From assembly GCF_003260265.1 (NCBI RefSeq), contig NZ_QITQ01000002.1, positions 124,001-188,000 of the forward strand: 64,000 bases of DNA, given 5' to 3'. Positions within the stretch are counted from its first letter, which is position 1. Every line of letters starts with the position of its first letter. The notes beneath the pieces are model-generated. The model did no database searches and was not told the DNA's origin. It saw only the letters and a program-made list of their open reading frames with translations. Below are positions 13,204 to 28,973 of this stretch, one piece after another. This DNA comes from Roseovarius amoyensis (GTDB taxonomy: Bacteria > Pseudomonadota > Alphaproteobacteria > Rhodobacterales > Rhodobacteraceae). The translations under genes were made by a program, and so were the position numbers.

Positions 13204-14577
13204 TCAAAACGCTTCCTCCAAATCCCAAAACCTGTTCGTCGCCAGGTCGCAGCCGACCGTGACGGTTCCGATGTCGCCCATGCGGGCCTTTTCGATGATG
13301 ATTTCGGCGCGGTTCTTCCACCGCTCGCAATCCGCTTCCCAATCGGCGCGTTCGTCGATCTTCTGCGGCGGCGTCTGCCGTTTCAGGTAGTACTCGGGCC
13401 GGTGAATGAACATCACGTTGTCAGGCGCGTTTTCCAGATCGCCCGATCCGCGCAGATGCGCCAGCCGGGGCCGCGCCATCTCGAAACTGTCCGACGCGCT
13501 GATCTTGCGGTCCACCTGGGCCAGCGCCAACACATGCACGTCGAGGATTTTGGCAACCTGCTTGAGATCGTTCGCTACCTGCGACAGCCGCACGAAGGCG
13601 CTTTCACCCTTGCCACGGACCAACTGGATGTAGTCGATCACCAAAAGCTGAAAGCCGCGGAACTTGTCATTCGCCGGCATTCGGTGTTTGAGCCGCTTCG
13701 CTTCCGACAGGATAGCCGGCACGTCCCGCACCTTTTGCGAAAATATCTCGATCGGCAGCGAGTCCATCGCCTTCGCCGCCTCGATCACCTGACGGAAAAC
13801 CGCGTCACTGGTAGCCCGGTCCATCGCCTTGTACGGGATCTGCGACTCGATGGATTTCACCCGCTTGGCAATATCTTCCTCGCCCATCTCCAACGTGAGA
13901 TAGCCGACGCCATGCCCGGCCTTCGCCGCCGCGTACATCAGCCAGATCGCAAGCGCGGTCTTGCCCATCGACGTGCTGCCGCCGAGAACCGTGTACCGCT
14001 TCGGCGAAAACGAGATCATGTTGTCCAGCGACGGCAGGCCCGTGGGAATGCCGATCTCTCGCCCCTCGCGCACCGCCTGCATTTGCTCGACGGATTGCCG
14101 TAGCGCCTTGAGGAACGACATCGACCGCGGCGCCGCGCTGTCGTCCTCGCGCTGCATCAGCATGATTTCCAGCTTGCTCACAGCATCGGCCAGATCACCG
14201 CCGCCCGTCAGATCGACCTCTATCCCGCGAACTTCTTCCAGAACCGCCCGCTTGCCGTGGAAATCCCGGACCATCGCCGCATAGTGCCGAACCGAACTTG
14301 GATCGGCCGCCGCCGCCAGCCGCACCAGGTAGCCCGGCCCGCCGAGTTGATCGAGCCCTTCATCCCCTTCAAGAGCGGCCTTTGCCGTGATCGGCGATGC
14401 AAGCTGATCGGCCTCGACCCTCGATGCCGCGTGATGCCAAATTCGGGCGTGAACGGGCTCGTAGAAATGTTCCGGCCGCAGCCGCTCAATGGCATGATAG
14501 GCGTCGTTGTTCACCAGAACCGCGCCAATTACCTGCTGTTCCGCCTCGATCGAGTGCGGCTCGATCTGTTCCGTCAT
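13204..14577 (-). CDS. dnaB: Replicative DNA helicase, DnaB-type
   Basis: A 457-residue protein starting at MTEQIEPHSIEAEQQVIGAV (14577), coupled by ATGA to the gene upstream. It has the DnaB N-terminal domain (residues 5-105), a linker and the RecA-like core: TGLPSLDNMI, Walker A GGSTSMGKTALA (about 210-221), Walker B LLVIDYIQL, and RPRLAHLRGSGDLENAPD with the sensor/arginine-finger region. It unwinds the phage replication fork as a hexamer. Compared with host DnaB (about 480-500) it is slightly short. No phage DNA polymerase is seen, so host polymerase III is presumably recruited. Confidence 0.9.
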   Translation of the reverse strand: MTEQIEPHSIEAEQQVIGAVLVNNDAYHAIERLRPEHFYEPVHARIWHHAASRVEADQLASPITAKAALEGDEGLDQLGGPGYLVRLAAAADPSSVRHYAAMVRDFHGKRAVLEEVRGIEVDLTGGGDLADAVSKLEIMLMQREDDSAAPRSMSFLKALRQSVEQMQAVREGREIGIPTGLPSLDNMISFSPKRYTVLGGSTSMGKTALAIWLMYAAAKAGHGVGYLTLEMGEEDIAKRVKSIESQIPYKAMDRATSDAVFRQVIEAAKAMDSLPIEIFSQKVRDVPAILSEAKRLKHRMPANDKFRGFQLLVIDYIQLVRGKGESAFVRLSQVANDLKQVAKILDVHVLALAQVDRKISASDSFEMARPRLAHLRGSGDLENAPDNVMFIHRPEYYLKRQTPPQKIDERADWEADCERWKNRAEIIIEKARMGDIGTVTVGCDLATNRFWDLEEAF

Positions 14578-14843
14578 GCCTCGATCCCGCGATAGATTTT
14601 CAGCCAGTGACGCGCGGCCCGGTTCGGCTGCCCGTTCACCATCATCGACGGCGGAACCAGCCCGTCCCGAAGAAACGACTTCTGGTGAACCGTCAGATCG
14701 GCCTCGGAACAGCCGCGGTTCAAAATCGCAAGGATCGCGCCAGGCGTCGGGCGCACACGGGGCTCCGTCGAAAGGTACTGGCGGCAAGCGCCCTGAATTT
14801 CAGACTGCGAGAACGGTTCAAGCAGGTCGATCCAGTCATCCAT
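14574..14843 (-). CDS. Small replication-operon protein (possible helicase-loading partner)
   Basis: An 89-residue protein with the start at MDDWIDLLEPFSQSEIQG (14843), which has AGGAAG 9 nt upstream and only an 8-nt overlap with the initiator-like gene. Helices and the RPTPGAILAIL segment resemble small proteins found next to phage dnaB genes. A helicase-loading role is inferred from position only, between initiator and helicase. Confidence 0.5.
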   Translation of the reverse strand: MDDWIDLLEPFSQSEIQGACRQYLSTEPRVRPTPGAILAILNRGCSEADLTVHQKSFLRDGLVPPSMMVNGQPNRAARHWLKIYRGIEA

Positions 14844-15663
14844 TGCCGCTTCTTCCTGGTCCCGCGGCATGTTCGGCTGGAAGTAGTGGGAGAGAAGCAC
14901 TTTCACCCGGCCCGCTATCCATTCGTCGTGCTGCACGGCGTTCGGCGATGCGACGTGCGAAGTCGGCGGTGCTTTCATCGGCTGATTGTGCATTTCTCGG
15001 CCCTCCTACTTTTTCGGGGAAAACGCCCTGCCAACCGTTTTCGATGCTCAGATCAAAAACCGCGTCAGGGTTGAGATGATTTTGGAGTTTCTTCACAAGG
15101 CGGCGCGCGGCCTCGGCGGTCAGCGGCCGCTTCATCGCTTTCCGGTGATTTGCAAAATCGACCGCCGTTTCATCACTGACGATCTGTTTCAGAATCTCGA
15201 CCGGAGAATCTTTCTTCGCCGGCTTCTTCGTTTCCGCCTGACAGTCATTTTCTGAGAAAAGGTCAGCCCCCTTTAGGGGGTTGGGGGTCTTATAATTGTT
15301 CTTCTTATAGGTTGTTCTTCTTAAGATACCTTGTTTCCCGCCGGGCGGTTCAGCCGGTTGCCGGTTTTTCAGGCTTCCGGTGACATCGTGAAGAACGTAA
15401 TCGTATCCGTCGAGTTTCCCTCCATCGACTTGCTTCGGAACGACCTCCAAATAGCCGGCGTCTTTCAATTCTCGAACCATGCGCTGATACTTGTCACGGC
15501 CCACTCCGCACCGCTTCATCAGGTCGCCGCCGCGATAGACCCAACTCGATCCCATGCCCATCATCAGGGCCAGCAGCCCTCGCGCTTCGATGGATATGCT
15601 TTCATCACGCATGGCGGCGTTTGGAACCGCCGTGAAATGCGAGTTTCGCCTTACTCTGGTCAT
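14836..15663 (-). CDS. Replication initiator/replisome-organiser-like protein with winged helix
   Basis: A 275-residue protein. The N-terminal 90 residues form a winged helix of the phage replisome-organiser type (FTAVPNAAMRDESISIEARG, then GVGRDKYQRMVRELKDAGYL). A charged linker follows, and the C-terminal part (LTAEAARRLVKKLQNHLNPD, SIENGWQGVFPEK) resembles domains linking initiators to helicase loading. It lies in the initiator-loader-helicase order of temperate phages. It probably binds the phage origin, which may lie within this gene as in lambda O. A long AT-rich patch at 15,240-15,330 within the gene is a candidate unwinding region. Confidence 0.7.
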   Translation of the reverse strand: MTRVRRNSHFTAVPNAAMRDESISIEARGLLALMMGMGSSWVYRGGDLMKRCGVGRDKYQRMVRELKDAGYLEVVPKQVDGGKLDGYDYVLHDVTGSLKNRQPAEPPGGKQGILRRTTYKKNNYKTPNPLKGADLFSENDCQAETKKPAKKDSPVEILKQIVSDETAVDFANHRKAMKRPLTAEAARRLVKKLQNHLNPDAVFDLSIENGWQGVFPEKVGGPRNAQSADESTADFARRIAERRAARRMDSGPGESASLPLLPAEHAAGPGRSGNG

Positions 15664-15833
15664 CCCGCTCTCCTAAAAATATCCGCAAGGCACCCTTCGG
15701 CCCGCAGGATTGAAACCTCGCGCCGCACGTCCTCGACGTTGCAGTTCAGTTCGATCGCTATGTCCTCGACCCCCAGCCCGCTGGTCAGAAGTTCGCGGAC
15801 CCGCACCTGCCATGCGCTGTTCTTGCAGATCAC
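15660..15833 (-). CDS. 57-residue helix-turn-helix protein
   Basis: The start GTG at 15833 overlaps the resolvase stop as GTGA. The sequence has a compact helix-turn-helix (VRELLTSGLGVEDIAIELNC, NVEDVRREVSILR), like sigma-70 region 4 or small phage activators. It is coupled to the initiator-like gene by ATGA. A regulator or DNA-binding accessory is likely; the target is unknown. Confidence 0.55.
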   Translation of the reverse strand: MICKNSAWQVRVRELLTSGLGVEDIAIELNCNVEDVRREVSILRAEGCLADIFRRAG

Positions 15834-16351
15834 CGGAACAACTCCCCCAACGGCATCGACTGGTATTTCGGCGCGTAGGTTGCTTGAGCCCAATCCCAGA
15901 TCGCATAGGCGTCGGCTTCGTCATCCGTCTCCGGCTTCCACCCGAGAAGCTGGCACCGGGCGATGACTTCTTGCTTGATCGCCTTCTTTGCGGCCGCCGG
16001 TTTCAGGTGCGGAAAATGCTTTACGGACAGGCTCTTGCCGAGAAAGTGCTTCCGCACCGTTGCCAGATGCGCCGTCTCGCACTTCACGCCGTGGCGCCAT
16101 GCAACACCGCGCACACAGGCTACGAGCCCGATCAGGTAAGCGGATGCCTTCGGCCCGCCGACGGGGGCCTCTGCCACGATCAGGTCGGGCCGGTGCTTGT
16201 CGATGATGGTTTCCGCCAGCGTGGCGACATTGGAAAACCGCCGGTCATCCGGTGGCTTGCCAAGATCGCACGTCCATGCGCGGGGGTCCGCACCGGACGC
16301 GCCGATGCAGACCCCCGTTTTGCTCGCTATGTCGAGCGCACAGATCTTCAC
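15830..16351 (-). CDS. RuvC-like Holliday junction resolvase
   Basis: A 173-residue RNase H-fold protein. Acidic catalytic candidates are visible in order: ALDIASKTGVCIG (first Asp on strand 1), DLIVAEAPVGGP (Glu on strand 4), and ETDDEADAYAIWDWA (two Asp near the end), matching RuvC and phage resolvases. It resolves branched phage DNA before packaging and fits with the RecT/exonuclease recombination genes on the other strand. ATG at 16351 overlaps the preceding gene by 4 nt. Confidence 0.8.
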   Translation of the reverse strand: MKICALDIASKTGVCIGASGADPRAWTCDLGKPPDDRRFSNVATLAETIIDKHRPDLIVAEAPVGGPKASAYLIGLVACVRGVAWRHGVKCETAHLATVRKHFLGKSLSVKHFPHLKPAAAKKAIKQEVIARCQLLGWKPETDDEADAYAIWDWAQATYAPKYQSMPLGELFR

Positions 16352-16662: not shown

Positions 16663-16858
16663 GTCCAATCCTTTCCGTTGCTGCCCGATCTCGCTCGGGC
16701 GTGCGCCTGGTGACGACATTTGCGGTTAATGCGGGTAATCAGCCCCGGCGGCCCGCGGCATGTCGTCGTTGAGCCCTCAGCGCGCGGGCTTGAGGTTGCC
16801 GCCGTGTTGGAATTTCGTGTGAAAACGTGCTTTCCTGCCCAGCACAGGAGGAACCGAA

Positions 16859-17050
16859 ATGCTGGACAGACTGATTGAGGTGCTTGCCTGGTACGGCGGG
16901 ATCATGGTTGCCGTGCAGATTTTCGCCTACGCCAACCGGAACAACTACGACCCCGCCGCCTTCATTGTGATGCAGGGCATCGGCTGGGGCGCGCTTACCT
17001 TCATTGTCGGCATCTTCCACGTCCTTGCCGGGCCGAACGTCTGGTACTGA
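16859..17050 (+). CDS. 63-residue membrane protein, candidate lysogenic-conversion gene
   Basis: MLDRLIEVLAWYGGIMVAVQ starts a protein with two predicted membrane segments (about residues 9-24 and 34-56). AGGAGG lies 9 nt upstream. The gene is on the plus strand inside a leftward region, so the lytic leftward transcript would run antisense through it. That arrangement, plus its own ribosome-binding site, is typical of morons expressed from the prophage. Superinfection exclusion is a possible role; nothing in the sequence proves it. Confidence 0.6.
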   Translation: MLDRLIEVLAWYGGIMVAVQIFAYANRNNYDPAAFIVMQGIGWGALTFIVGIFHVLAGPNVWY

Positions 17051-17133
17051 CAGACCGCCGGAAACAGTGAGTTTCCATTCCCACGGGTGTAATTCAGGCC
17101 GTGAATACCCACGTATTTCAGCGGGTTGGGGCA

Positions 17134-17391
17134 TCACTGGCCCCCGTTTGTCGGGGAGGATGCGGAGCGTTCGGCCTCATGTGTGGAATCTGCGACTGGC
17201 GCCCGGAAATTGAACAGGTCGAGAGGGCAGTCGATGCCGATCTCGCCGCACATGTCAGCGAGAACCCCGTACCAACCGGCAGAAAAGATGTTGTCAGAAC
17301 AAGCGTTGCTGATTGCGGCCTTCGAAACCCCAAGCCGCGCGGCCATAGCTTTACGCCCGAGGGCATCGCACATTTCGGAAACAGTCATCAT
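17134..17391 (-). CDS. Cro-like/carph-isopro-type repressor
   Basis: An 85-residue protein. The helix-turn-helix is clear: GRKAMAARLGVSKAAISNAC, followed by SAGWYGVLADMCGEIGIDCP and a short disordered tail. The start is set at ATG 17391 because the predicted -10 (17398-17403) places transcription initiation at about 17391, which would make the mRNA leaderless. A further ATG at 17409 lies within the operator and upstream of the start of transcription. It is the divergent partner of the XRE repressor at 17481, so it is the candidate lytic (Cro-role) regulator. Confidence 0.75.
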   Translation of the reverse strand: MMTVSEMCDALGRKAMAARLGVSKAAISNACSDNIFSAGWYGVLADMCGEIGIDCPLDLFNFRAPVADSTHEAERSASSPTNGGQ

Positions 17392-17397
17392 GCCCAG

Positions 17398-17426
17398 ATC
17401 GTAGTACATAATTTATGTACCAGCAA
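17398..17426 (-). promoter_or_regulatory. Leftward promoter with operator O1 in its spacer
   Basis: Minus-strand -35 TTGCTG (17426-17421), spacer 17420-17404, -10 TACGAT (17403-17398). The 17-bp spacer is exactly the perfect palindrome GTACATAATTTATGTAC. A repressor bound there would block RNA polymerase directly. Confidence 0.65.
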
Positions 17427-17445
17427 GACCACAGATTTATGTTCG

Positions 17446-17474
17446 TTCACATTTTCTGTACCTGCGGCGATAAT
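17446..17474 (+). promoter_or_regulatory. Promoter of the XRE repressor (predicted leaderless)
   Basis: TTCACA (17446-17451), 17-bp spacer and GATAAT (17469-17474) are each 5 of 6 to consensus. The ATG at 17481 begins 7 nt after the -10, at the expected transcription start, with no room for a Shine-Dalgarno. A half operator (CTGTAC, 17456-17461) lies in the spacer. Confidence 0.65.
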
Positions 17475-17480
17475 CGCGAG

Positions 17481-17813
17481 ATGACTTATGAGGAAAAGGC
17501 CGCCCTGGCCCGCACTGGAGATTACAGCAAAGAGGCCGTCGCGGTTCGATTGCGCGCGGCTCGTAATGCGGCTGGCTTGAGTCAGGCCGAGTTGGGTAAG
17601 GCCGCGCGTAATAGCAAGGCGGCAATCAGCAACGCAGAGCAGGCATTATCGTACCCCGGCAGGCCCGTATTGATCTACCTGTACCGAGAGCACAGGATTG
17701 ATCTGAACTTCATAGTTTGTGGCGATTTCGTCCAGCTTCCCGGTGATGTGCAGGACCGCCTTTTTGCCGCCCTTTCAGGCGCCATCCGTGGATCGGATCG
17801 ATCACAAGGTTAA
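17481..17813 (+). CDS. XRE-family prophage repressor
   Basis: A 110-residue protein from MTYEEKAALARTGDYS (17481). The XRE domain spans about residues 18-75: VRLRAARNAAGLSQAELGKA and then RNSKAAISNAEQ as the recognition helix. The C-terminal part (VQLPGDVQDRLFAALSGA) is short and lacks the Ser/Lys self-cleavage domain of lambda CI, so induction must use another route. It lies divergent from the Cro-like gene across operator O1 and upstream of operators O2/O3, which marks it as the probable lysogeny repressor. Start choice rests on the leaderless promoter. Confidence 0.78.
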   Translation: MTYEEKAALARTGDYSKEAVAVRLRAARNAAGLSQAELGKAARNSKAAISNAEQALSYPGRPVLIYLYREHRIDLNFIVCGDFVQLPGDVQDRLFAALSGAIRGSDRSQG

Positions 17814-17988
17814 GGTCTACCCCGAGTCGCCTCAGTATTGGTCCGATCCTAAAAATAAGATAACGCACTACACTCCCTCCCAAAACTTACATCCTCAATT
17901 ATGGTTCTCGCGTTGCGCGATCATCGTCAAGGCGATGCGCGTCATAGTGGCTTTGTTCGCCCCTAGATTCGCACATCTTACGTAAGCC
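17814..17988. other. AT-rich spacer between repressor and early promoter
   Basis: No gene is seen here. The stretch 17,840-17,900 is notably AT-rich (TCCTAAAAATAAGATAACGC) compared with the surrounding phage DNA and could hold a transcription end for the repressor or a small RNA. Confidence 0.3.
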
Positions 17989-18005
17989 GTACAGATTTTC
18001 TGTAC
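17989..18005. promoter_or_regulatory. Operator O2
   Basis: The 17-bp perfect inverted repeat GTACAGATTTTCTGTAC (7-bp arms, 3-bp centre) shares GTACA-N7-TGTAC with O1 and O3. It ends 8 bp upstream of the -35 of the rightward promoter. Confidence 0.7.
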
Positions 18006-18013
18006 TTTCTATG

Positions 18014-18042
18014 TTGACGGTACATTTTTAGTGTACCATACT
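18014..18042 (+). promoter_or_regulatory. Rightward early promoter with operator O3 in its spacer
   Basis: TTGACG (18014-18019) and CATACT (18037-18042) flank a 17-bp spacer that is exactly the palindrome GTACATTTTTAGTGTAC (18020-18036). O2 and O3 centres are 31 bp apart, about three helical turns, suitable for cooperative binding. It would drive the whole rightward early operon. Confidence 0.7.
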
Positions 18043-18090
18043 CTCCCCCATCCCCGCCGATACTACCAGGCGGATAGATGGGAGGCCGGA

Positions 18091-18411
18091 ATGTACGTCC
18101 GCATATCAACACAGATTGACGAGACCTATGACGAGGCTGGCGAACTGCCCGTCGTCATCACCTACGACATCGAAGGCGATGAATGCACCGCCGAACCCTA
18201 TAGCTGGGGCGGATCGCGCGGGACGGACCTGCGCCTTGATGCCGAGGTCTACAACGTCAAGATCGGCAACCTCAACCTGAGCCGCGATCAAGCCGTCCTG
18301 CTTTTCAGCGACGAACAGCGCGACGGCGAACAGTTCCTCAAACAGCTTGAAGAATACGCCGCAGAACGTGCCGCCGCCCGCTACCGGGAAGGCGAACTCT
18401 GCGCCGCCTGA
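18091..18411 (+). CDS. First gene of the early operon, unknown
   Basis: A 106-residue protein starting at MYVRISTQIDETYDEAG (18091), with GGGAGG 6 nt upstream; a frame to 18031 lies over the operator and is rejected. It is acidic, with beta strands in the first half and a long helix at the end (EQFLKQLEEYAAERAAARYR). It is made immediately after derepression. Phage first genes often encode host take-over or anti-defence proteins, but no motif shows this here. Confidence 0.65.
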   Translation: MYVRISTQIDETYDEAGELPVVITYDIEGDECTAEPYSWGGSRGTDLRLDAEVYNVKIGNLNLSRDQAVLLFSDEQRDGEQFLKQLEEYAAERAAARYREGELCAA

Positions 18412-18443
18412 ACTTCTCCCAAGCCGCCGCCTGCGGCCACCTT

Positions 18444-18476
18444 CCCGGCGGGGTTACGCGCCTCGCCGGGCTTTTT
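18444..18476 (+). terminator. Intrinsic terminator/attenuator inside the early operon
   Basis: The stem CCCGGCG (18444-18450) pairs with CGCCGGG (18464-18470) and is followed by CTTTTT. It separates the first early gene from the rest, so downstream expression would need read-through or antitermination. Confidence 0.65.
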
Positions 18477-18493
18477 ACAGAAGGGAACACGAC

Positions 18494-18757
18494 ATGAAAG
18501 TAACGCTCCACAACCTGAAATCGGTCAGGGCTGATTGCAGCCCGGCGACAGCACCAGATGGGTGGCTGACCATGTTCGATCGCGACGGCAACGAGATCAC
18601 CATCTTCATGGAATACCGGCTGGCAGAGGCAATCGTTGATGCTTGGTACAGCGAAGACGACGAACCGGAACCGCCGACCTACGACGATGCCCTTGCCACC
18701 AAATGCGATGTCCTGGCCCGTGAGCGGGAAGCGATGAAACTCAAGGGGATGGTGTGA
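18494..18757 (+). CDS. Early small protein with DRDGNEITI motif
   Basis: An 87-residue acidic protein from MKVTLHNLKSVRADCSP (18494), with AAGGGAACACGAC before it. Residues 31-42 (FDRDGNEITIFM) recur in related form in the 19997 gene (ARDRGGDEITIVL), suggesting a shared small beta fold or a duplicated domain. The C-terminal codons (REAMKLKGMV) are repeated almost exactly at the end of the 24928 gene. Function unknown. Confidence 0.6.
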   Translation: MKVTLHNLKSVRADCSPATAPDGWLTMFDRDGNEITIFMEYRLAEAIVDAWYSEDDEPEPPTYDDALATKCDVLAREREAMKLKGMV

Positions 18758-19890
18758 TGATCTTATTCAAGAACCCCGGCCAGATCGATCTGCGTGGCCT
18801 GAAAACATTTGGCCTGTCCAGCAAGGGACAAGACCAGATCGGGCGCTTCGGAACCGGCCTGAAATACGCAACTGCTGTTATCGTGCGCAATGGCGGGGCT
18901 GTCTCGATCTGGGCAGATGGCCGCTGGAACGAGATCACTACCCGAACAGACAGCTTTCGCGGCGCCGACATTCAGCACGTCACCATGAACGGCGACGATC
19001 TGCCTTTCACGACCGATCTTGGCCGTGATTGGGAAATCTGGATGGCATTCAGAGAATTGTATGCAAACGCTCTCGATGAAGGCGGCGACGTTGACCGCTC
19101 TGACGAGCGCCCGGTGCCGAGCGATGACGAGACGATCGTTGCTGTCACCCTCGACGCTTTCGAGGCGATCTTTTTTTCGATGGAGGAACACTTCATCGGA
19201 GGCGACGAAGCTCCAATCTGGTCCAGCGACGACATGGACGTATATCGCGGCCGATCCCCGTTCGTGTTTTATCGCGGTATCGCAGTTCAGAAGCTGAAAA
19301 CTCCGGCTGCCTATCGGTACAACCTGAAAGGCTATGTTGATCTGACCGAGGATCGAACAGCCAAGTATTCTTGGCAGGTACAGAACCGCATCGCAGCGGC
19401 ATTGCTCAAGTGCGACGACCCGTCGATCACCGATGCCGCCTGCGATCAGCGGAACGAGTTCGAGGCCAAGATAGATTTCACGGACGTTTCTGAAGCGCCT
19501 TCCGAGGTGTTCCTTGGCAGCGCGGTCAAGGCTGGTGCAAACTGCAACCCGACAGCCACGGCAATTGTACGGTCTCAACTGCCCCCGGACGGTAGTGAGG
19601 CGACCGTACTTCAAAAGGGTGCGCCTGGCGCTGAATGCCTTAGCAACGCGCTTCATACGCTGCGCGCCATTGGGGCTGACCTCTCCAAAGCGAAGTTTGT
19701 TCTGGCAGAGGGCATACCGATCTACCGCGACTATGACGTGCGCGGCGATGCGGTGTTCCTGTCTGAAAGCATCTTCGAGAACGAAGCCCGCATGACGATT
19801 GCCGTGATCGAAGGATATGCGGGCGTCGTTGGCGGCGGGTGGATGGCGAAACGGTTGATCGAACTGTCCTCCGCTGGGGCAGACCAATGA
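18757..19890 (+). CDS. GHKL-like ATPase of unknown function, motif order apparently permuted
   Basis: A 377-residue protein; ATG at 18757 is coupled by TGATG. Near the N-terminus QIGRFGTGLKYATAVIVRNG (about 27-46) looks like the G2 glycine box of Hsp90/GHKL ATPases, while FRELYANALDEGG (98-110) looks like the N-box with its Glu, Asn and Asp. In standard GHKL proteins the N-box comes first, so the order here is reversed, as in a circular permutation. The remaining 260 residues are mixed alpha/beta with no motif I know. It lies in the early operon ahead of recombination genes. An ATP-driven anti-defence or remodelling role is speculative. Confidence 0.6.
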   Translation: MILFKNPGQIDLRGLKTFGLSSKGQDQIGRFGTGLKYATAVIVRNGGAVSIWADGRWNEITTRTDSFRGADIQHVTMNGDDLPFTTDLGRDWEIWMAFRELYANALDEGGDVDRSDERPVPSDDETIVAVTLDAFEAIFFSMEEHFIGGDEAPIWSSDDMDVYRGRSPFVFYRGIAVQKLKTPAAYRYNLKGYVDLTEDRTAKYSWQVQNRIAAALLKCDDPSITDAACDQRNEFEAKIDFTDVSEAPSEVFLGSAVKAGANCNPTATAIVRSQLPPDGSEATVLQKGAPGAECLSNALHTLRAIGADLSKAKFVLAEGIPIYRDYDVRGDAVFLSESIFENEARMTIAVIEGYAGVVGGGWMAKRLIELSSAGADQ

Positions 19891-20936: not shown

Positions 20937-21036
20937 CCGTCGCCGCACCCCTTCCGGCTGGTGGCTATGCCCCGTGGCGGCCCTCGGCCTGCTGTGCTGG
21001 GCCGTAGCTGGCATCATCATATGGAGCGCAATCTGA
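20929..21036 (+). CDS. 35-residue single-span membrane peptide
   Basis: MTDRRRTPSGWWLCPVAALG continues into a hydrophobic helix (LLCWAVAGIIIWSAI), with positive N-terminal residues predicting a cytoplasmic N-terminus. It overlaps the upstream gene by 8 nt and the exonuclease start by 1 nt (TGATG). Second tiny membrane peptide of this operon. Confidence 0.5.
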   Translation: MTDRRRTPSGWWLCPVAALGLLCWAVAGIIIWSAI

Positions 21037-22028
21037 TGGCATTGGAAATACAGGAAATCCCTGACGGTCATGTGATCGAGGAACCGGGCGCGTACCGCTG
21101 TTCGATGGCGGCCTATCACAGCCAGGACATTTGCCCCGGCCCGTCTGTTTCTTCGACGGGCTTGCGGAAACTGGCGCTGCAATCGCCGTGGGCGTTCTGG
21201 AAAACTTGGGACGGCAACCCGGATCGGTATCCCGAGAAAGAGCCGTCACCGAGTTTGATCCTTGGACGGGCCGCACATGCGCTGATCCTTGGCGACGAGG
21301 TTTTCGACGAGCATTTCATCTACGTGCCCGACGACGCGCCGCCCCGGCCCACGGCAACACAGGTCGCCGCCTTTGAACGGACGGGCAAATGGTCTGACAG
21401 CGCCGCGCCCCGTGCCGAGTTTTGGGATGCCTTCGATGCTCGGGCCGAAGGCCGGCACCTGCTGACGGCGGATCAATCCGAGAAGATCGTCTACATGGCG
21501 GAAAGCCTTGCCGCGAACCCGCAGTGTGTGGAGTTGCTGCGCTCCGACCTGATCGAGATCAGCATGATCTGGCAGGATGCGCCGACGGGGATCTGGGTCA
21601 AGAGCCGCCCGGACTGCCTGCCGACGAACGGCGCCGATGTTTCCGACCTCAAGACGATCGCGCCGAAGGGGGCCGACTTTCGCTTGGCCGTGCAGCGCGC
21701 GACCACCGACCACGGCTATTACATTCAGATGGCGCTGGCCCTGATGGGGGCGGAAGAAGTCTTGGGCGCCACGGCTGCCGATTGCGCCTTGGTGTTCCTG
21801 CAAACGACGGAGCCCTACGAGTGCGCGCCGCTGTTTATCGACCAGGACACGCTTTATCTCGGCCGCGTTCTTATCCGGCACGCATTGGACACGATGGCGC
21901 GGTGCCTTGAGACGGGCGACTGGCCGGGCATCGGCGTTGATCCCGTCACCTACGCATTGCCGCCGAGCATGTCGGGACGGCTCTACGAACTGCAAGCCGC
22001 CGGCGAACTTCCCAAACTAGAGGACTGA
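21036..22028 (+). CDS. RecE/YqaJ-type PD-(D/E)XK exonuclease
   Basis: A 330-residue protein starting MALEIQEIPDGHVI (21036). It has YHSQDICPGPSVSSTGLRKL and LILGRAAHALIL as in exonuclease VIII/DUF3799 proteins, and the nuclease core VKSRPDCLPTNG followed by VSDLKTIA, in which Asp, Asp and Lys form the PD-(D/E)XK site. It resects double-stranded ends 5' to 3' to give single strands for the neighbouring RecT annealase. Adjacent order, with a 4-nt gap, is the classic two-component phage recombination system. Confidence 0.85.
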   Translation: MALEIQEIPDGHVIEEPGAYRCSMAAYHSQDICPGPSVSSTGLRKLALQSPWAFWKTWDGNPDRYPEKEPSPSLILGRAAHALILGDEVFDEHFIYVPDDAPPRPTATQVAAFERTGKWSDSAAPRAEFWDAFDARAEGRHLLTADQSEKIVYMAESLAANPQCVELLRSDLIEISMIWQDAPTGIWVKSRPDCLPTNGADVSDLKTIAPKGADFRLAVQRATTDHGYYIQMALALMGAEEVLGATAADCALVFLQTTEPYECAPLFIDQDTLYLGRVLIRHALDTMARCLETGDWPGIGVDPVTYALPPSMSGRLYELQAAGELPKLED

Positions 22029-22032
22029 CAGA

Positions 22033-23016
22033 ATGAACAACCCCATCTTCCAGTTTCGCAAGGACATCAAGGCGGCACTTCCCACATTCGGATTGCGCAA
22101 CGAGCGCGAACAGGAGCGCATGAGTTCCGTTCTGATGGTGGCGGTCGAGAAAGACCCGCAGCTTGTGACCGCAGATCGGCAGAGCCTTATTGCCTCTGTC
22201 CGTCAGTGTGCAAACCACGGGTTGGTTCCAGACGGGAACGAGGCCACGCTTCAAGTCTACAACACCAAGGTCAAGATCGACGGCGCGGAGAAGTGGATCA
22301 AGAAGGTCCAATACCAGCCGATGGTTCGTGGCATCATCAACCGCGTTCAGAAATCCGGCAAGATCAGAACCTTCTGGGCCGATGTCGTCTACAAAGGCGA
22401 GACCTTCACTATCGACGCATCGGACGGCGAACGGCGCCCTGTTCACATAAAGCAGAGTGAGTTCAACCGCGGAACGGATGACGAGATTATCGGCGCCTAT
22501 TCTGTTGCCAAGTTCAAGGATGGCACTGTCGATTGCGAGCCGATGGATCGGTCGGAAATCGAAAAGGTCCGAAAGGTCGCCAAGACCCAGAAGGTTTGGG
22601 AAGGGTGGTTCACCGAGAAGGCCAAGGTTGCCGTGCTGCGGCGTCATTCAAAGCGCCTGCCGCTGTCATCCGAAGATCTGGACATGATCCTCAACCGTGG
22701 CGGCGACGAGCATGATCTTGAACGGGATATGCGCGACGTGACCCCGGAGCGCGAAAAGCCCGCCCGTACCCTCGCCCAACGGCTGCAAGAGCCGGAAGAA
22801 CCGATGGACGGCGAGGTCATGCCGGATCAGGACGGCCCGCACTGGACGGAGGAAATCGACACGTCCGAGGCATTCCCTGGCGACGATGTATTCACGGAGG
22901 GGGCCGAGGCATTCCAATCCGGCGCTGACCGTACAACCTGCCCATATAGCGACCCCTCTGTTGCGTGCCACTGGCTTGGGGGGTGGGATCAAGCGAAGGC
23001 GGCGGCGGAGAAATGA
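22033..23016 (+). CDS. recT: RecT-family single-strand annealase with RMF-like C-terminal tail
   Basis: A 327-residue protein. Residues about 5-215 match RecT (ALPTFGLRNEREQERMSSVL, VRQCANHGLVPDG, LQVYNTKVKI, WEGWFTEKAKVAVLRRHSK). Past residue 230 comes an acidic linker and then AFQSGADRTTCPYSDPSVAC followed by HWLGGWDQAK, which closely resembles E. coli ribosome modulation factor (SKEMCPY....SQWLGGWREA). RecT proteins do not usually carry this. The annealase pairs complementary single strands produced by the upstream exonuclease. The tail could bind nucleic acid or ribosome; its function here is unknown. Confidence 0.85.
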   Translation: MNNPIFQFRKDIKAALPTFGLRNEREQERMSSVLMVAVEKDPQLVTADRQSLIASVRQCANHGLVPDGNEATLQVYNTKVKIDGAEKWIKKVQYQPMVRGIINRVQKSGKIRTFWADVVYKGETFTIDASDGERRPVHIKQSEFNRGTDDEIIGAYSVAKFKDGTVDCEPMDRSEIEKVRKVAKTQKVWEGWFTEKAKVAVLRRHSKRLPLSSEDLDMILNRGGDEHDLERDMRDVTPEREKPARTLAQRLQEPEEPMDGEVMPDQDGPHWTEEIDTSEAFPGDDVFTEGAEAFQSGADRTTCPYSDPSVACHWLGGWDQAKAAAEK

Positions 23017-26930: not shown

Positions 26931-27194
26931 ATGACCGCCAAGCCAGATCGTACCTTTGCCGCCGAAAGCCTGTACGGCTCGAACGAGTGGGTGTCGCTCC
27001 GCTTGGGGATGGCGAAGGACACCTGGTTTCGGAAGCGGGATTGCCTGTACGAACGCGGCTTTCCGAAGCCCGACAAGGACACTGGTCTCTACCTGAAAGC
27101 CGACGTTGACGCATGGATTGCACGGCAAAGCCGCTTTGGTGACGGGCATGGTATGGTGTCGGGACCAAGGGGAGTACGAATCGATGCAATATAA
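26931..27194 (+). CDS. Excisionase / AlpA-like DNA-binding protein
   Basis: An 87-residue protein starting MTAKPDRTFAAESLYGSN (26931), with GCCGGAGGAATGAGG before it. WVSLRLGMAKDTWFRKRDCL and GFPKPDKDTGLYLKADVDAW are the winged-helix pattern of MerR/AlpA/Xis excisionases. It overlaps the integrase start by 11 nt, and location beside the integrase supports a directionality role in excision. Confidence 0.75.
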   Translation: MTAKPDRTFAAESLYGSNEWVSLRLGMAKDTWFRKRDCLYERGFPKPDKDTGLYLKADVDAWIARQSRFGDGHGMVSGPRGVRIDAI

Positions 27195-28365
27195 ACCCGC
27201 GCTATTTGACGGCTCTGATCCCGGCTATGCTCCGGGGCTGAACTGGTCCGGGCGATACGCCTACTGGAAACCTACCCGCAAATATGTGGACTTGGGGCAC
27301 CCGACGGCCCCAATACGCCTGCCGGGCACCAAGGGCGACGGCCGGGACGCAGAGAGAGCCGCAGAGGCCCGCCGACTGACGCGGGCGATGATCGAGAATT
27401 ACCAGCCAGACGACGGCCCGACGCCCGGCACATGGTCGTGGGTGATCCGCCGGTGGAAGGAAGATGCCTACAGCCGTTACAACACCTGCGGCGCCAACAC
27501 CCGCGCGGATTATGACTACCGCACGAAGAAATGGGACGCGATTATCGGGCACATGCAGATCGACGCGCTGACCTACGACCAGATCAACATCATCCGCCGG
27601 GCGATGGACGAGAAGGAATATTCCGACAGCCTCAAGCAGAAGCTGTTCGGGATGCTGCGGCACCTGGCGCGGTACGCCCTCGGGCCGCTGCAACAGAAGC
27701 AGACGCGCGATCTGGTGGACGTTCTCGGGGAAATGCGGTTCCGGTCACCGTCGAAGAAGGACTCGGCGCCGACGCGGGAACAGGTCCGTGCGGTGATCGA
27801 CGAAGCCGATGCCCGCGGCATGTTCGCCTTTGCAACCGGCATCCTGTTCCAGTGGACCTATGCGCTGCGGGCCGTCGATGTGCGAGGCCAGTGGCTTCCC
27901 GCCGACGGAGAGGGCGGCATCGTGCGCGACGGCAAGCGGTGGCAGGACGGGCTGACGTGGGACATGTTCGACAAGGATTTGACGGAGTGGGGCAAGGTGA
28001 TCTCCAAGACGCAGACAGCCGTCGAGGGCGTGCGCCTGACGCCGGAACTGCGCTGCCGCCTGCGGCTTCTGCGGAACGTGTGCGGCACCGGCCCGGTGAT
28101 CGTGTCGGAGCGGCTTGATGCGCCGTACACCAAGCACGGGTGGTCAAGGGCATTCCGCCGTATCCGCGATGATCTCGGCATTCCCGACACCATGAAGATG
28201 ATGGACACCCGCGCCGGGGCCCTGACGGAAGCGAAGAACCTGGGCGTTGATCCGTTCGCCCTGCGCGATCTCGGCACGCACGCACATGTCAGCACGACGG
28301 ACGGCTATGCGAGGGGCCGCAGCGAGAACATCAACAAGGTTGTCGAACTGAGGGGAAGGACATGA
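27184..28365 (+). CDS. int: Tyrosine recombinase, prophage integrase
   Basis: A 393-residue protein starting MQYKPALFDGSDPG (27184). The catalytic domain shows box I YALRAVDVRG (Arg), a beta-turn lysine (VISKTQTAVEG), box II MMDTRAGALTEA (Arg, with Met in the place of the usual His of HxxR), LGTHAHVSTTDGYARG (His and the nucleophilic Tyr). The N-terminal half has the SAM-like core-binding fold and an arm-binding region. It points at the tRNA-Lys gene 530 bp away, the probable attachment site. The Met in box II is unusual but occurs in relatives. Confidence 0.9.
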   Translation: MQYKPALFDGSDPGYAPGLNWSGRYAYWKPTRKYVDLGHPTAPIRLPGTKGDGRDAERAAEARRLTRAMIENYQPDDGPTPGTWSWVIRRWKEDAYSRYNTCGANTRADYDYRTKKWDAIIGHMQIDALTYDQINIIRRAMDEKEYSDSLKQKLFGMLRHLARYALGPLQQKQTRDLVDVLGEMRFRSPSKKDSAPTREQVRAVIDEADARGMFAFATGILFQWTYALRAVDVRGQWLPADGEGGIVRDGKRWQDGLTWDMFDKDLTEWGKVISKTQTAVEGVRLTPELRCRLRLLRNVCGTGPVIVSERLDAPYTKHGWSRAFRRIRDDLGIPDTMKMMDTRAGALTEAKNLGVDPFALRDLGTHAHVSTTDGYARGRSENINKVVELRGRT

Positions 28366-28629: not shown

Positions 28630-28833
28630 ATGGTCGAAAGAATAGTCGTATCCAAGGGGAAACTCTGCGGCCTGTACTCGTTGAGTAGCGAATGCGCGCC
28701 TAGATACGTCGGCGTGGATGTTTCGACAAATTCAGACTGGACGTGCGAATGCGAGTTCGAGATCACGGAAGATGGTGTTCGCATTCTTGATGGCCGGCAA
28801 TACAAGGACGAGAACGAGTCGGAAACGCTTTGA
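28630..28833 (+). CDS. 67-residue hypothetical protein next to the attachment site
   Basis: MVERIVVSKGKLCGLYSLSS (28630; a GTG at 28624 is an alternative start) is a beta-rich protein (YVGVDVSTNSDWTCECEFEI). It is the last prophage gene before the tRNA; its stop overlaps the first predicted arm-type repeat. Function unknown. Confidence 0.5.
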   Translation: MVERIVVSKGKLCGLYSLSSECAPRYVGVDVSTNSDWTCECEFEITEDGVRILDGRQYKDENESETL

Positions 28834-28897: not shown

Positions 28898-28973
28898 TGG
28901 TGAGCCGTGCAGGATTCGAACCTGCGACCCACTGATTAAAAGTCAGTTGCTCTACCAACTGAGCTAACGGCCC
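28898..28973 (-). tRNA. tRNA-Lys(UUU), prophage attachment site
   Basis: Read on the minus strand, a 76-nt cloverleaf begins GGGCCGTTAGCTCAGTTGG and has anticodon loop CTTTTAA (anticodon TTT), a T-loop GGTTCGAATCC and an encoded CCA end (28898-28900). The 7-bp acceptor stem GGGCCGT/ACGGCTC is intact with one G-U pair. The prophage abuts its 3' end and the integrase points at it, so the attachment core presumably lies in the 3' half of this gene and the other copy is left of the window. Confidence 0.95.

Follow-up and report, generated by a model that had tools for sequence, protein, structure and literature searches.

The window analysed here is the whole stretch of DNA presented above, 64,000 nucleotides in length. 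Two divergent operons lie in it, separated by a short region that carries two HTH genes:

13204-14709, minus strand: DnaB-like helicase, leftward operon (Pfam DnaB_C, 3.5e-48)
14836-15663, minus strand: replication initiation O-like protein, leftward operon (phrog_678, 8.3e-24)
15830-16351, minus strand: RuvC-like resolvase, leftward operon (phrog_159, 4.8e-23)
17134-17391, minus strand: HTH gene for a Cro-like protein of 85 aa, opening the leftward early operon (position, HTH fold and weak family matches)
17481-17813, plus strand: CI-like repressor gene, 110 aa, HTH domain and C-terminal helix, without a peptidase domain (Pfam, profile and AF2 model)
20961-22028, plus strand: exonuclease VIII-like protein, rightward operon (phrog_412, 1.1e-60)
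22033-23016, plus strand: RecT recombinase, rightward operon (TIGR00616, 3.5e-24; Pfam RecT, 4e-29)
27106-28365: integrase, rightward operon (phrog_1, 1.5e-19)

According to these family searches, the replication operon lies on the side of the Cro-like gene and the recombination operon on the other side, the order that is characteristic of lambda-type immunity regions. Both HTH genes matched a viral contig (43,186 bases) at 100%. From this match, simple arithmetic locates the right-hand prophage end at about window position 28833, adjoining a tRNA-Lys gene (28898-28973), and the left-hand end beyond the window. Two proteins encoded to the right of the switch have further features: RecT carries a C-terminal RMF/CrpP domain (approximately residues 287-322; Pfam RMF, 1.6e-07; NF041886, 1.1e-10), and a 377-aa protein (18757-19890; phrog_8203, 1.9e-61), to which the family gives no function, matched a sacsin-type ATP-binding domain weakly and below cut-off (0.0056). 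Directly after the first gene of the rightward operon, a GC-rich terminator-like hairpin followed by a T run (18444-18470) is reminiscent of an antitermination control point.

The 110-aa protein encoded from 17481 matched the Pfam families HTH_31 (1.5e-07) and HTH_3 (2.5e-05) above cut-off, and HTH families were the only ones above cut-off; no peptidase domain was found by this search. A length of 110 aa is too short to accommodate a LexA-type peptidase, which excludes self-cleavage in the manner of lambda, and all 54 distinct repressors compared below are similarly short (100-127 aa). By profile comparison the best solved relative is the P22 C2 repressor (7.8e-07). In the AF2 model (mean pLDDT 93) a helix spans residues 46-53, and superposition on the P22 C2 crystal chains gave TM-scores of 0.80-0.82. 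The recognition helices of the two proteins align without gaps, repressor residue 47 corresponding to P22 residue 33. A Foldseek search with the model returned no match at E ≤0.001, ranking ClgR first (0.0048) and the P22 chains at 0.0099-0.023. Judged by sequence and by the modelled fold of its DNA-binding domain, the protein is an XRE HTH protein of the P22 C2/434 type. For the 85-aa protein encoded from 17391 the family matches are weak (Pfam Phage_CI_repr, E 0.0015, below the curated cut-off), and its designation as Cro-like is suggested by position and HTH fold; residues 24-33 form a helix in the AF2 model (mean pLDDT 81), which we took as the recognition helix.

Direct reading of the sequence located three exact palindromes of the form GTACA-N7-TGTAC, at 17404-17420, 17989-18005 and 18020-18036, where the original prediction had placed them. 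In 100 shuffles of the window a mean of 0.01 such palindromes was found, and the whole genome (3,819,295 bases) contains no other exact copy, while the pattern read backwards gave one match. The leftward frame reads TTGCTG (17426-17421, minus strand), 17-bp palindrome, TACGAT (17403-17398), and the rightward frame reads TTGACG (18014-18019), 17-bp palindrome, CATACT (18037-18042), so the palindrome does make up the whole spacer between the predicted -35 and -10 boxes at both window promoters. The second and third sites are centred at 17997 and 18028, confirming the proposed distance of 31 bp. The proposal of three sites was incomplete, since it missed a fourth predicted operator at 17445-17461. 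This one, GTTCACATTTTCTGTAC, is the sole sequence in the window with exactly one mismatch to the palindrome; at up to two mismatches, nine matches were found with 6.8 expected, a count that is uninformative at such looseness. The predicted features of the switch region are:

17398-17403, minus strand: -10 box of the leftward early promoter (PR-like), TACGAT (sequence; TA adjoins the palindrome in 34/45 loci)
17404-17420, palindrome, no strand: operator O1 (OR1-like), GTACATAATTTATGTAC, filling the PR-like spacer (exact palindrome, conserved geometry)
17421-17426, minus strand: -35 box of the leftward early promoter, TTGCTG (sequence; TTG adjoins the palindrome in 36/45 loci)
17445-17461, palindrome, no strand: fourth operator (OR3-like), imperfect (one mismatch); its left half overlaps the -35 box of the repressor promoter
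17446-17474, plus strand: repressor promoter (PRM-like), TTCACA (17446-17451), 17 bp, GATAAT (17469-17474) (scan; 10/12 consensus matches)
17989-18005, palindrome, no strand: OL2-like operator, GTACAGATTTTCTGTAC, 5' of the rightward promoter (exact palindrome; right-hand pair in relatives)
18014-18019, plus strand: -35 box of the rightward early promoter (PL-like), TTGACG (sequence and promoter scan; abutting TTG in 19/32 loci)
18020-18036, palindrome, no strand: OL1-like operator, GTACATTTTTAGTGTAC, filling the PL-like spacer (exact palindrome; right-hand pair in relatives)
18037-18042, plus strand: -10 box of the rightward early promoter, CATACT (sequence and promoter scan; abutting TA in 20/32 loci, not in the window)

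A mechanical promoter scan of 16800-18600 returned two sites, the rightward early promoter and TTCACA-N17-GATAAT, a result that is weak by itself given a mean of 1.2 in shuffled sequence; the leftward promoter was absent from its list. Two clear operators were seen on each side of the window, where a lambda-type operator region has three. Between the leftward -35 box and the fourth site (17427-17444), an operator half-site adjoining the -35 box (positions -12 to -8 in the alignment of 45 loci) is partly conserved and poor in the window; judged by eye it begins approximately 24 bp from O1, and the spacing of OR1 and OR2 in lambda is likewise about 24 bp. Control of the switch by LexA was also considered. 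The alphaproteobacterial LexA box is GTTC-N7-GTTC; exact copies number three in the window and none in the switch region (1.88 expected), and in view of this lack of an exact box in the region the candidate was rejected.

Homologs of the repressor were collected as a basis for evaluating whether these features are conserved. Among 295 genomes of the same family, 24 (that of the window included) matched the repressor query at E ≤0.001; besides the window's own, seven matches in six genomes reached 1e-20, the remainder being weak. Five viral loci matched next, and a 12-row alignment (A1) then yielded 32 genome loci, all 32 from Rhodobacterales (NCBI ranks), and 42 viral loci. After removal of one fragment (L111), 73 of these 74 loci and the window made up 74 loci with 54 distinct repressors. 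Counts given below for 52 loci leave out L065 and L050. Counts for 44 loci leave out the same two, which have no operators, as well as seven loci with a displaced anchor (L039, L056, L057, L066, L040, L041 and L080) and L090, a near copy of L089 in which cro was mis-called; they include L047 and L097, whose anchors were chosen with a promoter-box bonus and which stand outside the set of 45 loci used next. Neither blastn with 17100-18500 nor tblastn with the repressor gave a match among 50,697 phage records, and hence no relatedness of this locus to sequenced lambdoid phages was detected. Plasmids provided one weak repressor match (Sulfitobacter, 34% identity), and when 292 genomes of the order were searched with a strict pattern of the rightward promoter and its operator, one genome matched, at the position of the Albibacillus locus L007/L049.

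For the left-hand promoter-operator, each locus was anchored on whichever 17-mer was most palindromic in the range -100 to -67 relative to the repressor start, with no promoter criterion. The anchor fell at -77 to -74 in 42 of 54 loci, compared to approximately six expected at random (4 of 34 places), and at -85 to -72 in 45 of 54. On the leftward strand of these 45 loci, TTG is immediately next to the palindrome in 36 and TA is immediately next to its opposite side in 34, compared to 0-2 and 0-3 loci, respectively, at shifts of one to six bases. The exception is TA at +3 (13 loci), which belongs to the operator arm itself. Relatives carry arms of the types GTACA, GTCCA, GTTCA, ATCCA, ATTCA, ATCCG, ATACA and others; the letters of the palindrome thus differ between phages, and the promoter boxes are therefore conserved independently of the arms. 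Beyond TA the -10 boxes are weak, with T at position 6 in 17/45. Nine of the 54 loci lack the expected anchor. By eye, L039, L047, L056, L066 and L097 have a recognisable arrangement, L040, L041 and L080 form a subgroup with different arms and an offset position, and no operators were seen in L050 and L065; L057 and L065 look like chance picks among the 45 anchors. Together, the comparison of the 54 distinct repressor loci supports the promoters predicted in the window.

The right-hand operators were sought 3' of the repressor as two sites 25-37 bp apart, each with at most two mismatches to the O1 arms of the same phage. Of the 44 loci, 32 had such a pair, compared to 1.8 expected from shuffled sequence; its spacing was 30-32 bp in all 32 and exactly 31 bp in 22. 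In L107 the search probably scored a pair other than the one at the promoter. No right-hand pair was detected in the remaining 12 of 44 loci within the sequence examined. At the second site of the pair, TTG abuts the operator in 19/32 loci, and TA abuts it in 20/32, the window itself not among them; at shift -3, inside the arm, TA occurs in 15. Pairs at 30-32 bp with at most one mismatch were found in 27/44 loci using a phage's own arms and in none using arms at least two letters away; at up to two mismatches the numbers were 32 with own and 0.99 with foreign arms. Since own arms succeed where foreign arms fail, sites up to approximately 2.5 kb apart share their letters within one phage: operator arms vary between phages, yet agree inside one phage. 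Operators thus appear to be present at both early promoters, as in lambda-type regions. The interval between the repressor stop and the right-hand operators, 17814-17988 in the window, ranges from about 140 to 2500 bp among relatives and contains, in L045, L051, L055, L072, L092 and others, small ORFs that look lipoprotein- or membrane-like by eye; it is a possible slot for lysogen-expressed genes, like rexAB.

These counts bear on whether the exact filling of the spacer has any significance of its own. Operators of 17 bp may simply meet promoters whose best spacer is 17 bp, any overlap being sufficient for repression. Lambda OR1 indeed overlaps the spacer and the -10 box without filling the spacer exactly, TTG lies one base further out (shift -1) in 5/32 right-hand promoters, and the L040/L041/L080 subgroup is offset. 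However, on the left, where TTG abuts in 36/45 loci, it was found in none at shifts of one or two bases, and on the right the 19 abutting cases stand against five at -1 and none at +1. We therefore consider an incidental match unlikely, while leaving it appreciable weight, and regard exact filling as a strong tendency and no rule. Operators inside promoter spacers are known from other repressors, e.g. in engineered tet promoters.

The fourth site was sought in relatives at -41 to -30 from the repressor start codon only. Its distance from O1 is 40-41 bp in 39/44 loci. The right half matches the phage's own arms with zero or one mismatch in 34/44, while the left half reads TTCA in 37/44, even though the consensus arm of the same phage has TTCA in just 7/44. 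As TTCA is kept in the left half although a phage's own arms differ, the simplest reading of these alignments is that this half is constrained by a second role as -35 box of the repressor promoter. Further downstream, A is found at -11 from the repressor start in 43/52 loci, and in the window the ATG follows GATAAT by 6 nt, indicating that the repressor mRNA is probably leaderless. The same prediction applies to the Cro-like mRNA, which is probably leaderless given a start codon 6 nt past the leftward -10 box; this distance is 6-8 nt in 42/44 loci, and in the other two (L058 and L060) the script chose an upstream TTG, an ATG being present 6 nt after the -10 box. At the other end of the gene, 30/44 Cro-like proteins terminate in Ala-Ala (often EDAA; e.g. 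L038:2693-2911 and L081:2687-2911, both minus strand), compared to 0/44 repressors; the window protein (17134-17391) does not have this ending. An overlapping ATGA could account for the last letter in at most 25/44 Cro-like proteins and never for the pair. The Ala-Ala end could be a ClpXP degradation tag, of the sort found in alphaproteobacterial CtrA.

Next we investigated whether the operator letters follow the residues of the predicted recognition helices, in which both CI residue 47 and Cro residue 25 are located. CI residue 47 is A in 9/10 loci with TACA-type operators and T in 10/12 with TCCA-type operators, and Cro residue 25 is A in 7/10 and T in 10/12, respectively. In the P22 complex, as described in PMC3865217, the equivalent residue 33 is a valine in a pocket of four thymine methyls. 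For operator position 3, CI residue 39 associates more strongly than residue 47, and for position 5 it is Cro residue 48, which is not part of the recognition helix, that associates most strongly. Six loci (L089, L108, L061, L098, L052 and L071) break the pattern. CI 47 and Cro 25 agree with each other (A or not A) in 42/44 loci, with three independent changes. When the helix columns were left out of the tree, approximately four changes of the operator letter were counted (sign test, p 0.25 to 1), and with so few changes the covariation test is without power. A tendency of the operator arms to follow the recognition-helix residue of both proteins is accordingly suggestive only.

Taking together the observed geometry, gene context, conservation and within-phage agreement of arms, we read the locus, with a probability of roughly 0.88, as a mirrored immunity region of lambda type that belongs to an integrated temperate phage of a Rhodobacterales bacterium and operates by the mechanism set out below. 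The original prediction of an immunity switch at two early promoters is in this respect supported by the sequence comparison: the arrangement recurs with other arms, and lambda-like genes flank it on both sides. Regarding binding by CI and Cro, promoter activity, order of affinities, cooperativity and who represses what, we infer the following. The 110-aa protein would be the lysogenic, CI-like repressor and the 85-aa protein its lytic, Cro-like rival, both binding at the same palindromes of 17 bp. At the leftward early promoter, a repressor dimer bound to O1 would sit between the -35 and -10 boxes, and at the rightward one a dimer on 18020-18036 would occupy the equivalent place; with the spacers covered, RNA polymerase would be blocked and hence the replication operon on the left and the recombination operon on the right would be off in the lysogen. 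A second dimer at 17989-18005, three helical turns upstream and on the same face of the DNA, may cooperate with the first and so strengthen the right-hand block. Occupation of the fourth site (17445-17461) by Cro, or by CI in excess, would turn off the repressor gene, as at lambda OR3. For each regulatory gene, the predicted mRNA would start approximately at the start codon. Self-cleavage being unavailable, induction would need an antirepressor, a protease or competition by Cro.

A different role for the 110-aa protein has to be weighed against this mechanism. It may be an accessory autoregulator of the DicA or antitoxin type, with the palindromes as its local sites and lysogeny maintained by another gene; its small size and missing peptidase domain would fit, and it also matches the models of DicA (0.0006) and the Y4mF/HipB antitoxin (0.0022), in both cases far below the curated cut-offs. 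However, its putative sites lie at both flanking early operons and are the sole exact copies in the genome, just 175 bp separate its gene from the right-hand operators, an interval with one overlapping 88-aa ORF in another frame (17719-17985), and its best solved relative by sequence is the P22 C2 repressor, so that we regard an autoregulator as improbable. Even less credible is that the palindrome at 17989-18005 serves mainly as an RNA hairpin terminating the repressor transcript: a mechanical scan does call it terminator-like (7 pairs, loop of 3, T-rich tail; together with 18444-18470, two sites found compared to 1.3 expected), but only three of its pairs are G-C, and its counterparts in relatives retain their own operator arms and the spacing of 30-32 bp.

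Under the preferred reading of the locus as a lambda-type immunity switch, the relatives may be viewed as one switch family of Rhodobacterales whose geometry is frozen (distances of 40-41 bp and 30-31 bp, spacers exactly filled by operators, leaderless mRNAs for both regulators). Here CI, Cro and the four separated operators would change letters together as a natural specificity code, one operator would serve permanently as half of a -35 box, the repressor would have no SOS-cleavable domain, and the Ala-Ala end of Cro in most relatives, possibly a ClpXP tag, would render the lytic regulator short-lived. We offer this wider picture tentatively, at somewhat below even odds. Neither such a family nor the four-site geometry nor the combined half-operator/-35 site was found in the open-access literature searched, outside of which most subscription papers lie, and the same holds for an operator-level study of prophage switches in Rhodobacterales. 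With about fifty distinct natural versions that share one layout and differ in operator letters, the family provides a ready-made specificity set that could show how two competing proteins and separated DNA sites shift specificity with the circuit intact. Furthermore, as the repressor is without lambda's DNA-damage-sensing domain, prophage induction would have to work otherwise.

Among described systems, prophages of Phaeobacter inhibens, a related host, are similar in gene arrangement, with divergent xre and hth genes and lysogeny and lysis promoters (xre-luxR-luxI / hth), which were tested in the preprint (PMC13345283). They differ from the window locus in being Mu-like and myovirus prophages with quorum-sensing genes, and the word 'operator' is absent from the main text of that paper (PMC13345283); the main text of a paper on Rhodobacteraceae prophages uses 'repressor' three times and 'operator' not at all (PMC8224337). 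According to PMC4488713, the immB telomere phages N15 and phiKO2 possess OR and OL operators with CB/Cro, and PY54 has leaderless cI and cro mRNAs, a property that the distance between -10 box and ATG would predict here as well. In contrast to the window locus, which has no match in the phage collection, these three phages are enterobacterial. The resemblance to P22 C2 and 434 concerns the DNA-binding domain (profile match, gapless alignment of the recognition helices and TM-score, as given above); the 110-aa protein lacks their C-terminal domain and has extra N-terminal and C-terminal helices. In lambda, CI and Cro act at OR and OL, the replication genes lie on the side of Cro and the recombination genes opposite, and the repressor start is leaderless. 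The window shares with lambda the divergent CI- and Cro-like genes around a common operator region, the gene order (mirrored: replication genes, leftward Cro-like HTH gene, operators, rightward 110-aa CI-like HTH gene, operators, recombination genes), predicted operators at the repressor promoter as well as at the two early ones, and a predicted leaderless repressor start. It differs in its repressor, which lacks the self-cleaving C-terminal domain of lambda-type repressors, apparently in carrying only two clear operators on each side where lambda has three, in operator-to-operator distances of 40-41 bp and 30-31 bp instead of approximately 24 bp, and in operators that fill the spacer where those of lambda overlap a box. 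The parts themselves, i.e. lambda topology, a P22-type HTH and leaderless cI and cro, are already known.
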